NCBI GenBank assembly: GCA_001593935.1
Contig: LUCE01000012.1
Span: 1-42,219, forward strand
Direction of reading: 5' to 3'
From: Candidatus Bathyarchaeota archaeon B26-2
Lineage (GTDB): Archaea; Thermoproteota; Bathyarchaeia; Bathyarchaeales; B26-1
Length of the DNA stretch: 42,219 nucleotides
This document shows positions 30,961 to 34,845 of the stretch, piece after piece. The translations under genes were made by a program, and so were the position numbers. Every line of letters starts with the position of its first letter. Positions within the stretch are counted from its first letter, which is position 1. The notes under the pieces were generated by a model, which saw nothing but the letters and a program-made list of their open reading frames with translations, did not search any database and was not told the origin of the DNA.

Positions 30961-31782
30961 CTACGATATCTTTTCCTTCTTAAAGATCATGATGTACTCA
31001 TGAACCTTATTCACCCTGAAGACGTAAGGGTAACCCAGTGGTCGGAGATTGTTATACTCCAGTCTTCTATCCCAGATGATTATGTCGTCGAGCTTGAATC
31101 CGACCTCTTGCAGGGTCCATGCGAGGTCCATATGTAAGGGATAAAACTTATCCTTCTTCCGAAGGTCCATCACTATCACGACGCACCATTTCTCCGGCTT
31201 CAAGACTATGTACACTTTGTTGAAGACCTCTTTGAGGGAGTTGATGAACATTTTGTAGCTGGAAATGTTTCCCAGATCAGCCTCTGATTCTGTGTAAGGC
31301 CGAGTCTCCTTGTAATCCGCTGTTCTCTTCTGACGATGGACGTTCCAGTAAGGAGGAGAGGTGACGACGAAGTCTACCGAGTTCGGCTTCAAGTACTTGA
31401 GAAGTCTCCGCGCGTCATCCTCATATATTACCGTTCTCTCAAAGTTGTGTTTAGAGCCGGAAGGCCTCTGCGCCAATCTCTCCCTAGCCAACTTCACAAA
31501 CTTCTCCGCGATCTCAAACCCGATGCCTCTTCTCCCGAGAGCCTTAGCAGCGAGGAGGGTTGTGCCGCTGCCAAGAAAAGGGTCCAAGACCACGTCTCCT
31601 CTCTTCGTATAAATCTTTAATAGCCTCTCAACCAACTCCACAGGGAAGACGGCCGGATGTCTCAGCCTCCTCTCTTCTGGAGATTTCGTTACATCCCACA
31701 CGCTGATGGAGTACCTTGTCCAAGTCTTACCATCGAGATCGTTCATCCTCTCGGTTCTCTTTCGCCCTCTTCCACTGGACAT
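30961..31782 (-). CDS. Orphan DNA (N4-cytosine/N6-adenine) methyltransferase, permuted motif order
   Basis: A 273-residue S-adenosylmethionine-dependent methyltransferase. The SAM site DPFLGSGTTLLAAKALGRRG (67-86), with the preceding helix RHPAVFPVELVERLLK (motif X), lies in the N-terminal half. The catalytic motif TSPPYW (141-146) comes after it. In the common beta class the order is reversed, so this protein is circularly permuted relative to that class. TSPPY is more usual for N4-cytosine enzymes. No restriction endonuclease gene is adjacent, so the enzyme is an orphan. An RNA methyltransferase of the Trm11 type is less likely because no THUMP domain is present and motif X looks DNA-type. 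TATA-like TTAAAAGATTAAA lies upstream on the minus strand. Confidence 0.8.
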   Translation of the reverse strand: MSSGRGRKRTERMNDLDGKTWTRYSISVWDVTKSPEERRLRHPAVFPVELVERLLKIYTKRGDVVLDPFLGSGTTLLAAKALGRRGIGFEIAEKFVKLARERLAQRPSGSKHNFERTVIYEDDARRLLKYLKPNSVDFVVTSPPYWNVHRQKRTADYKETRPYTESEADLGNISSYKMFINSLKEVFNKVYIVLKPEKWCVVIVMDLRKKDKFYPLHMDLAWTLQEVGFKLDDIIIWDRRLEYNNLRPLGYPYVFRVNKVHEYIMIFKKEKIS

Positions 31783-31895: not shown

Positions 31896-33308
31896 ATGGT
31901 CCGGATGAGCTTCCTGGCTTGTATCGATTGCGGTAGCGCGGTTGAGCCTTACCCGCCCAAATATAAGTGTCCCGTCTGCGGCGGCCTGCTTGAGTATCGA
32001 GTCGAGCCTGAGAGGTTGAGGACCGCTGAGTTCAGTGGCCCCCTCACCTTCTGGAGGTACCGCAGCCTCCTCCCTGAGGTTAAGAACCTTGTTACGATGA
32101 ATGAGGGTGGAACTCCTCTCCATGTCGCAAGCCGCCTAGCTGACCGGATGGACGTGAAGAGTCTCCGCCTCAAGGACGAGACCCGGAACCCAACGAACTC
32201 CTTCAGGGATAGAAGTGCAGCCCTCCTCCTCTCCAACGCCATAGACATGGGCTACAAAGCTTTGATCTGCGCCACCAACGGGAATATGGGAGCTTCCTTA
32301 GCTGCCTACTGCGCCAAGTACGGGCTCATCTGCCACGTTCTAATCCCTAAAGTCATGGATATGGGTAAGCTCGCCCAGATGCTCATATACGACGCCATCA
32401 TCGAGGAGCACGGCGAGACCGTGGACAAGCCTATAGAGAAGGCTGAGAGGCTGGCGTCCGAGACTGGATGGTATCAAGCAACACCTGAACTTAACCCCCT
32501 CGCGGTTGAGGCCCAGAAGACTATCTCATACGAGGTCTCGGAGCAGATGGGGGTTCCGGACTGGTTCATAGTCTCGATGGGAAGCGGGGGAACCATCTAC
32601 TCGATCTGGAAGGGTTTCATGGACCTCCAAGAGATGGGTAAGACAGACTCTGTGCCGAGGATGGTCGGCGTTCAAGCGGAGGGCTGCTCACCCATAGTAG
32701 ACTCCTACCTAAAGATCGGGGAAGAAAAGAGGAGGAGAGCCAAGCCTCTAACCCACGCCGTAGGCATACTCGTCAAGAAGCCTTTACAGAGGGAGATGGC
32801 TATCAGAGCCATAAAGGAGTCGAACGGAATCGCCCTATCGGTCTCGGATCAAGAGATATTCCAAGCTGAACAGGCCATAGCTAGACTGGAGGGTATGTTC
32901 GCTGAGCCTGCGAGCTCGGCGACGATAGCCGCCCTGAAGAGGATGAGGGACGGCGGGGTGCTGGACCCCCACGACAGGGTGGTCTGCCTGATAACTGGCA
33001 GCGGGTTGAAGGCCACGGATGTTCTCCAAGCCTTAGCTAAGAGGAGGAAGACCGTCATACTCGGCGCCGAGTTCAGCACGAAGGAGAGGATCCTCCGAAT
33101 TCTGAGCCAGAGAGATGCTTACGGATACGAGATATGGAAGGCTTTAGGGAGGATGATGACGAGGGTCGCGGTCTACCAGCATCTAAACGACCTCGAGAAG
33201 AAAGGGCTTACGACGACGTACAGCAGAGAGAAGAGAAAGTACTTCCGGATAACGGAGCGGGGGAGGCGGATTCTCCAAATGATCGATGAGCTGAAGATTC
33301 TACTTTGA
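31896..33308 (+). CDS. Threonine-synthase-like protein fused to a winged helix, PLP lysine replaced
   Basis: A 470-residue protein. An N-terminal zinc ribbon (CIDCGSAVEPYPPKYKCPVCGG, residues 9-30) and a fold-type II PLP domain (about 45-380) match threonine synthase. Kept features are the S/T-x-GN-like loop CATNGNMGAS (125-134) and the phosphate loop SMGSGGT (227-233). The Schiff-base lysine motif, normally P-T-G-S-F-K-D-R, here reads NPTNSFRDR, so Arg104 replaces Lys. Residues 394-466 form a PadR-like winged helix (STKERILRILSQRDAYGYEI..., TRVAVYQHLNDLEKKGL). Without the lysine, normal PLP catalysis is unlikely. A ligand-sensing transcription regulator derived from threonine synthase is my inference. 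A sequence error (AAG to AGG) or an unusual chemistry are alternatives. Confidence 0.8.
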   Translation: MVRMSFLACIDCGSAVEPYPPKYKCPVCGGLLEYRVEPERLRTAEFSGPLTFWRYRSLLPEVKNLVTMNEGGTPLHVASRLADRMDVKSLRLKDETRNPTNSFRDRSAALLLSNAIDMGYKALICATNGNMGASLAAYCAKYGLICHVLIPKVMDMGKLAQMLIYDAIIEEHGETVDKPIEKAERLASETGWYQATPELNPLAVEAQKTISYEVSEQMGVPDWFIVSMGSGGTIYSIWKGFMDLQEMGKTDSVPRMVGVQAEGCSPIVDSYLKIGEEKRRRAKPLTHAVGILVKKPLQREMAIRAIKESNGIALSVSDQEIFQAEQAIARLEGMFAEPASSATIAALKRMRDGGVLDPHDRVVCLITGSGLKATDVLQALAKRRKTVILGAEFSTKERILRILSQRDAYGYEIWKALGRMMTRVAVYQHLNDLEKKGLTTTYSREKRKYFRITERGRRILQMIDELKILL

Positions 33309-33350
33309 GGGTGAACTCTAAGCCTCAACGACGCCGGTGCTTAAACCCTC

Positions 33351-33374
33351 TTTTTGGCTAATCCTTTTTATTTT
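33351..33374 (+). terminator. T-rich tract between the ThrC-like gene and purF
   Basis: TTTTT (33351-33355) and a second pyrimidine-rich run (CCTTTTTATTTT, to 33374) follow the ThrC-like stop by about 45-65 bases. These can serve as oligo-T terminators. The second run and CTTTTAATG (33383-33391) may also act as the purF promoter. Confidence 0.35.
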
Positions 33375-33414
33375 CCACAAACCTTTTAATGTGATGAAGG
33401 GACTTGGTAGAGTC

Positions 33415-34845
33415 ATGATGAGGGAGCACTGCGGAGTCATAGGCGTATTCTCTCTAGAAGGCCACAACGTAGTTCCGATGCTTCTATCCGGTTTAGAGGC
33501 CCTCCAGCACAGAGGTCAAGAGTCATGGGGAATAGCGGTCCCCGGCCGCCAGCCCTTCAAGAGGCTGGGCATAGTCTCCCAAGTCAGCGAAGAGGAGTAT
33601 GAAGCCCTCATCAAGACGGGTGCTAACGTCGGAATAGGCCACGTGAGATACTCAACCACGGCTAGATCGGTCCTGCGGAACGCCCATCCACTGAAGATAG
33701 GTGGGCCAGGAGGCTTCTGCATAGCTCACAACGGAACTCTTGAAAGGGAGTACCTGCTCCGAAACTTGGCGGAGAGCGGGTTCTCCCCGTCCCTAAAGCT
33801 GACCGACACCGAACTGATGGGGCTCGGGCTCTACCAGAAGTTGAAGGAGGGCCTAGACTGGGCTGAAGGATTCAGAGCTCTTAACCCCCAGCTCAACGGG
33901 TCCTTCTCCGTTGTGATCTTAACCTCAAAGGGGGAGCTGATCGCCGCTAGGGATGAGAGAGGGTTCAGGCCTCTCTGCCTCGGATGGCACGAGGAGACTT
34001 CCTCCTACGTGGTGGCCTCCGAGAGCTGTGCGCTCGACCGGCTTGGAGCCGAGCTCCTCCGGGACGTTCAGCCCGGTGAGATTCTGAAGATCAGCAGGAA
34101 CGGGCTTGAGGAGCACCGGTTCGCGGAGGCCGAGAGGCACGCCCACTGTCCCTTCGAGTTCACCTACTTCGCGCATCCAAGCAGCTACATCGAGGGTGTG
34201 AACGTCTACCACGCTAGGAAGAGGATGGGGCACATACTTGCTGAGAGCTATCCCATAGACGCAGATGTAGTTATTCCCGTGCCAGACTCGGCTAGACCGG
34301 CTGCCCTAGGATACTCGGAGCGTTCGGGCATACCCTTCGAGGAAGGCTTGATGAAGGATCGTTACCGGAGAAAGGGGAGCTGGCGGAGCTTCATCGAACC
34401 GGAGAAACGTGAGGAGGTCGTCCTAAACATAGCTCCCATAAAGAAGGTTATAGAAGGGAAGCGCATCATCCTGATAGACGATAGTATAGTTCGCGGAACG
34501 AGCTCCAAGATAATTGTACGGTCGAAGCTGAAGAGGGCGAAGGAAGTCTCCCTGCTCCTAACCTTCCCGCCCATAATCTATCCGTGCTACGCAGGTATAG
34601 ACTTCCCAACCCAAGAGGAGCTCCTCGTTTATAGAGTCTGCAGGGGAAGATGCTCCCTCAAAGAGATAAACGAACGGGTTGGAAGGGAGATCGGCGTCAA
34701 GGTTCTAGGCTACAACGATACAGGAGGCCTAAGCAAAGGCATAGGCATACCGATGGACCAGCTATGTCTCTCATGCACAACAGGCGACTATGGATGTCTC
34801 AAATATAGGCCCAAGTTCAAGACGAGAGAAGAGATGAAGGGATAA
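33415..34845 (+). CDS. purF: Amidophosphoribosyltransferase (first step of purine synthesis)
   Basis: About 476 residues from ATG 33415 (a second ATG follows at 33418). The enzyme makes phosphoribosylamine from PRPP and glutamine. The N-terminal Ntn-type glutaminase has the nucleophile Cys in REHCGVIGVF, exposed after removal of 4-5 residues. The phosphoribosyltransferase motif is ILIDDSIVRGTSS near residue 352. Four Cys residues at the positions that hold the [4Fe-4S] cluster in the Bacillus enzyme are present (HCPFEFTYFAHP, YPCYAGID, and the pair in LCLSCTTGDYGC). An upstream GTG or ATG at 33337-33394 would add a non-homologous tail. GuaA, a later purine enzyme, is encoded 1.5 kb downstream. 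Confidence 0.93.
   Translation: MMREHCGVIGVFSLEGHNVVPMLLSGLEALQHRGQESWGIAVPGRQPFKRLGIVSQVSEEEYEALIKTGANVGIGHVRYSTTARSVLRNAHPLKIGGPGGFCIAHNGTLEREYLLRNLAESGFSPSLKLTDTELMGLGLYQKLKEGLDWAEGFRALNPQLNGSFSVVILTSKGELIAARDERGFRPLCLGWHEETSSYVVASESCALDRLGAELLRDVQPGEILKISRNGLEEHRFAEAERHAHCPFEFTYFAHPSSYIEGVNVYHARKRMGHILAESYPIDADVVIPVPDSARPAALGYSERSGIPFEEGLMKDRYRRKGSWRSFIEPEKREEVVLNIAPIKKVIEGKRIILIDDSIVRGTSSKIIVRSKLKRAKEVSLLLTFPPIIYPCYAGIDFPTQEELLVYRVCRGRCSLKEINERVGREIGVKVLGYNDTGGLSKGIGIPMDQLCLSCTTGDYGCLKYRPKFKTREEMKG

Follow-up and report, generated by a model that had tools for sequence, protein, structure and literature searches.

An open reading frame at positions 31896–33308 (plus strand) of a 42,219-nucleotide stretch from Candidatus Bathyarchaeota archaeon B26-2 (the whole stretch is referred to here as the window) most likely encodes a transcriptional repressor that senses PLP, has no catalytic activity, and controls the acquisition of vitamin B6. 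This reading is drawn from sequence comparison and structure prediction, and its main supports are the loss of the catalytic lysine in step with the gain of a DNA-binding domain, the state of the ligand pocket, and a palindrome that recurs upstream of vitamin B6 genes.

The frame spans 470 codons, and its second in-frame ATG, at 31905, fits the N-terminus of relatives better than the first. The preliminary description of a threonine-synthase-like protein with a fused PadR-like winged helix is borne out by matches to Pfam PALP (E 7e-72) and PadR (PF03551; E 3e-11), the latter scoring 43.8 bits against a gathering score of 27. In the AlphaFold2 (AF2) model (mean pLDDT 91.4), a threonine-synthase fold is joined to the winged helix by a low-confidence linker at residues 383–391, and a fold search with this model matches 2c2b (Z 47.3, rmsd 2.4, 366 residues aligned) and 1v7c (Z 46.0, rmsd 1.7, 313 aligned). 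All features lie on the plus strand. A zinc-ribbon-like N-terminal segment (31920–31979) contains four cysteines, C9, C12, C25, and C28, that are invariant in a 62-sequence alignment; it is followed by the fold-type-II PLP-enzyme (threonine-synthase-like) domain at residues 66–368 (32091–32999), proposed here as the ligand sensor, and by the PadR-like winged helix at residues 399–461 (33090–33278). Within the latter, a helix predicted from the alignment and the AF2 model at residues 423–435 (..RVAVYQHLNDLE..; 33162–33200) is likely the DNA-recognition helix. The winged-helix domain is shared with PadR regulators, although ordinary PadR proteins are small and possess no enzyme-fold sensor. The nearest relative, with 86% identity, comes from Candidatus Bathyarchaeota archaeon B26-1. 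A DNA-methyltransferase-like gene (30961–31782, minus strand) lies divergently upstream in the window, and a purF-like gene (33337–34845, plus strand) lies downstream, as it also does in G001 (locus L107), a genome of the same genus.

At the position of the lysine that forms the Schiff base with PLP, the protein carries Arg104, within NPTNSFRDR, as the preliminary description held; the AGG codon, however, is located at 32205–32207, with 32202–32204 encoding Phe103. The 86%-identical protein and all other close relatives also read R here, or M in one lineage, so a sequencing error does not account for Arg104. When 398 genomes from the same phylum were scanned with NCBIfam PRK05638 and further relatives were added, 101 distinct PALP proteins were obtained. 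All 24 proteins without a winged helix retain the lysine, versus two of the 76 fusions, with one more Arg protein set apart from this split because a contig end cuts it off. Conservation of Arg among homologues with the same fusion had been suggested as a check, and Arg is present in 55 of the 76; a further 19, in which the position is highly variable (I, L, M, V, A, T, or F), make up a second branch, so that 74 lack lysine. Homologues of the same architecture that carry lysine, which had been named as evidence against the idea, do exist, but they are limited to L077 and L086. In the tree these two branch next to the Bathyarchaeia Arg clade, as its sister, and whether their lysine reflects retention or reversion is a question of where the tree is rooted. 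The fusion family is archaeal and widespread, occurring in Thorarchaeota and in Thermoproteota as defined by GTDB, Bathyarchaeia among them.

The pocket was compared by alignment to threonine synthase in Thermus thermophilus numbering, in which N87 and T317 are taken to be PLP contacts, and T88, N154, S155, and R160 are taken to form the site for the phosphate of O-phosphohomoserine. Asn130 (32283–32285), the expected contact to PLP O3′ (N87), is kept in 55 of 55 Arg-type proteins; Thr367 (32994–32996) is the expected N1 contact, and the contact threonine (T317) is present in 51 of 55. The glycine-rich GSGGT loop at residues 229–233 (32580–32594), the expected holder of the PLP phosphate, is mostly retained in Arg-type proteins, and the S/T-N-G-N loop is largely retained as well. 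The substrate-phosphate residues, in contrast, are all replaced: Met131 (32286–32288) stands in place of Thr (T88), and Pro197-Glu198 and Ala203 (32484–32504) in place of Asn-Ser (N154, S155) and Arg (R160). This Arg occurs in none of the 55 Arg-type proteins versus 22 of the 24 unfused ones, and L077 and L086 have lost the substrate-phosphate residues too. An otherwise intact PLP pocket, as first described, is therefore correct for the expected cofactor contacts but not for the substrate site. Since the PLP contacts are kept and the phosphate site is gone, it is plausible that the protein binds PLP and implausible that it makes threonine.

Threonine synthases (TIGR00260; 2d1f, 1uim, 2c2b) share the fold and are homologous across the whole catalytic domain, with 28–37% identity in structure alignments; unlike them, the window protein lacks the catalytic lysine along with all four residues of the substrate-phosphate site, and possesses a DNA-binding domain. 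That it might have kept a catalytic function, as an unusual threonine synthase or a related lyase working through Arg104 or without any lysine, the DNA-binding domain being accessory, is suggested by the lysine of L077 and L086 and by PRK05638 (NF004170), an equivalog that names the family threonine synthase and whose architecture the window protein shares from end to end. It scores 399.7 bits against a cut-off of 421 (match 2–441 of 442), and close relatives pass, with matches over the cut-off in 12 of the 398 genomes. The top-scoring members, however, carry NPTGSFRDR and a winged helix, and so it is the functional label of PRK05638 that appears to be wrong. The variety of residues that replace the lysine and the loss of the substrate-phosphate site, even in the two lysine-bearing members, leave continued catalysis extremely improbable. 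The presence of a canonical thrC tells against it too: in the genome of the window (G000), a second, normal thrC, which it had been suggested to look for, encodes NPTGSFKDR and is flanked by a homoserine kinase-like gene and a homoserine dehydrogenase gene, after which comes an aspartokinase-like gene. The genome thus has a thrC besides the fusion, which is dispensable as a threonine synthase. A third paralogue on contig C51 of the same genome (L130, 11532–12656) retains the lysine (NPTNSFKDR) and has Tyr where threonine synthase has the substrate-phosphate Arg; its neighbours are a MoaD/ThiS-like protein and another homoserine-dehydrogenase-like gene. This residue pattern and these neighbours suggest some other function, which may lie in sulfur amino-acid synthesis.

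The gene seen most often beside the fusion, at 36 of about 64 loci, encodes the S component of an ECF transporter (PF07155). In the Arg branch it lies downstream on the same strand as the regulator; in the second branch, Thorarchaeota included, it is transcribed divergently. At three loci of family f18, by inference Desulfurococcaceae, genes for an ABC ATPase and probably EcfT come next. A profile built from 22 S-component sequences has a single match among PDB sequences, 4HZU_S (E 4e-17), which is also the best fold match of the S-component AF2 model (Z 20.1, versus 17.8 for RibU). 4HZU_S is HmpT/PdxU2, for which pyridoxamine is the reported substrate (PMC4860826). Glu41 of HmpT aligns with the glutamate of the archaeal GYFNxGE motif. 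The substrate-contact His84 of HmpT is replaced by an invariant Lys in the archaeal S components (K89 in the first sequence of the alignment), a residue that might contact pyridoxal. At many of the 19 loci concerned (e.g., L072, 8338–9345), an AIR-synthase-family (HypE/ThiL-like) gene comes after the S component, which it overlaps in L094 (5502–6515); its product could be a missing B6-salvage kinase.

The distribution of the S component across genomes also bears on its substrate. Among the 398 genomes, 189 have the S component and 186 have PdxS, yet only 22 have both, with 167 having the S component only, 164 PdxS only, and 45 neither. The Fisher p-value for this near-exclusion, 7e-44, overstates the evidence since genomes within one family are not independent; the exclusion is in part phylogenetic, and the phyletic case rests more on the alternation of the two inside several families. 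The window's genome has one S component and no PdxS. The regulator accompanies an S component in 66 of 71 regulator-bearing genomes, with none found in the other five.

A transporter for riboflavin or for HMP, the thiamine precursor, with a regulator that senses that compound instead, would be in keeping with the Pfam name of the S-component family (riboflavin transporter), the frequent ThiL/HypE-like neighbour, and the frequent absence of riboflavin synthase from S-positive genomes. Riboflavin synthase is present in 6 of 40 S-only genomes versus 23 of 40 PdxS-only genomes, a sample chosen by these two states and thus not conditionable on PdxS; part of the S/PdxS signal may therefore reflect general auxotrophy. 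In families f20, f25, and f27, however, the S component and PdxS alternate while riboflavin synthase is constant across the genomes sampled. The link to ThiC disappears once PdxS is accounted for: the S/PdxS exclusion persists among ThiC-positive and among ThiC-negative genomes, and the S component is flat with respect to ThiC among PdxS-less genomes (odds ratio 1.02). These values come from whole-set tables, which are trustworthy, whereas a within-family statistic for the three markers omits genomes lacking all of them and leans negative. Together with operator-like sites at pdxS in four genomes, described below, these results make another vitamin quite improbable.

A palindrome was first spotted by eye upstream of S-component genes in genomes in which the regulator is distant, G000 among them. 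A genome-wide scan was then run with the pattern TAGTAWAGTTAYAACTATACTA, allowing up to three mismatches; this was built from G000, G004, G394, and G026, and these four genomes are thus not independent tests. The 22-bp palindrome occurs once or twice in 30 of the 33 regulator-bearing genomes of the group, and in 29 of the 33 it lies shortly upstream of the S-component start. An AT-rich TATA-like stretch precedes the palindrome, and the start codon follows it. In G004 and G394, it is located at the S component with the regulator on another contig, and the sole site in the whole of G000 (C66:63958–63979) lies upstream of the S-component gene. At the same threshold, G382, G335, and G012 bear the regulator and have no site, and no site occurs in any of nine S-positive, regulator-less genomes (G020, G024, G314, G386, G035, G015, G025, G028, G339). 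A control scan with the reversed pattern gave four matches in three of 48 genomes. The only strong site in G363, a perfect one, lies away from the S component, near a gene (L198, 2519–3022) that resembles the HypE/ThiL-like one. The window itself contains no palindrome site, and thus no autoregulation is seen there; a motif search upstream of Arg-group regulator genes found nothing convincing above shuffled controls.

The palindrome also extends to B6 synthesis. In the whole genome of G001 there are two sites, one at the S component and the other (C15:342–363) about 20 nt before a pdxS-pdxT pair, both genes of which were confirmed as such. The pdxS frame of this assembly is split in two (L175, 382–1348; frames 382–1185 and 1130–1348), through either assembly error or decay. 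Weaker copies at the pdxS start of G016, G034, and G199 have 4, 5, and 5 mismatches of 19, where the simulated chance per 200 bp is 0.15% for up to four mismatches and 1% for up to five; these genomes were chosen because they possess pdxS, and the copies are too weak to pass the scan threshold. A site at pdxS was thereby seen in all four genomes of the window's order examined that have both regulator and PdxS. In G176, of family f18, no site was found at pdxS; the operator of Desulfurococcaceae members is apparently different or weaker.

The Ile/Leu/Met branch has a distinct operator candidate, the 14-bp palindrome GCCTATATATAGGC, which lies before the regulator or between regulator and S component at 7 of 16 second-branch loci. 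Scanning with one mismatch located a site preceding the S-component gene in G203, a genome in which the two genes are apart, in addition to several other matches that look like chance. In G003 (L087 4312–5927, L152, L153), GCCTATATATAGGC or a near copy is also found close to GNAT-acetyltransferase-like genes, and the second-branch regulator has an EamA/DMT-like transporter gene beside it; bacterial PLP-sensing regulons also include such genes (PMC5320631).

The notion of an enzyme turned regulator is thus strongly supported by the loss of lysine with fusion, by the normal thrC elsewhere, and by the co-occurrence of palindrome and regulator, and regulation of B6 genes is judged very probable. 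The proposed mechanism is as follows. The threonine-synthase-like domain would hold PLP, or a PLP adduct, with no Schiff base to the protein, and the protein, probably dimeric, would use its PadR-like winged helix to bind the palindrome TAGTATAGTTAnAACTATACTA, which separates the promoter from the start codon at the B6 ECF S-component gene and, where the palindrome is present there, at pdxS-pdxT. Plentiful PLP would then shut off uptake and synthesis. Repression is favoured over activation because a protein sitting between the TATA-like stretch and the start would hinder initiation.

Given the fold, the retained contacts, and the regulon, PLP itself is the likely ligand. Of the amino-acid or PLP sensing initially proposed, the PLP part agrees with the predicted targets, the S-component gene and pdxS-pdxT, and no threonine or other amino-acid gene with an operator was found. 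A B6 regulator could instead sense an external aldimine of PLP with an amino acid (e.g., threonine) and so read B6 and amino-acid status jointly. Lysine mutants of related fold-II enzymes are known to hold adducts of PLP with amino acids or other ligands; two such structures, the K41A O-acetylserine sulfhydrylase with methionine (1d6s) and the K87T tryptophan synthase (2tys), are both among the fold matches of the model, and the S/T-N-G-N loop is largely retained. In family f9, moreover, the fusion gene is divergent from or near thrC (L015, L020, L022–L024, L067–L069, L116, L117, L119). The predicted sites nevertheless lie at B6 genes, with none at thrC in the scans, and the side chain at the lysine position varies widely in the second branch; an aldimine sensor is hence considered unlikely. 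The f9 arrangement, with threonine synthase as the closest fold, might also suggest a regulator of thrC and threonine biosynthesis that senses threonine or O-phosphohomoserine. This was set aside as very improbable: no operator sites were found at thrC, adjacency to thrC is confined to f9, the substrate-phosphate residues are lost family-wide, and the thrC cluster of G000 has no site.

With PLP as the preferred ligand, the family would work like PdxR without being a member of MocR. PdxR and other bacterial MocR regulators likewise fuse a winged helix to a PLP-enzyme fold, and they sense PLP and control pdxST, pdxK, and the transporter gene pdxU (PMC5320631); the predicted sites at the S component and pdxS match such a regulon of PLP synthesis and B6 transport. 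MocR proteins, however, combine an N-terminal GntR helix with a fold-type-I aminotransferase domain, whereas the window family is archaeal and has a C-terminal PadR-like helix and a non-homologous fold-type-II sensor domain that has lost the PLP lysine. A threonine-synthase-like enzyme minus its lysine and substrate site, plus a winged helix, is thus likely to represent a new, archaeal class of PLP-sensing transcription factor. A literature search of open-access papers found no earlier description of the fusion, and the part drawn on here of a 2023 survey of bacterial and archaeal B6 pathways does not mention an archaeal B6 regulator (PMC9997740). The survey gives PdxST (DXP-independent) as the only archaeal B6 route, names no characterised B6 transporters other than PdxU, PdxU2/HmpT, and P5PA, and calls the area, to which the substrate of the archaeal S components belongs, poorly studied (PMC9997740).

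If the proposal is correct, it would provide Archaea with a B6 regulator, the PLP-sensing regulators in the literature found being bacterial only, and would identify B6 as the substrate of a large family of archaeal ECF S components. It would also correct a family-wide misannotation by which a non-catalytic protein is counted as threonine synthase in metabolic models. Finally, it would constitute a case of convergent evolution, in which two PLP-enzyme folds have separately been made into PLP-sensing regulators, the archaeal one independently of PdxR.
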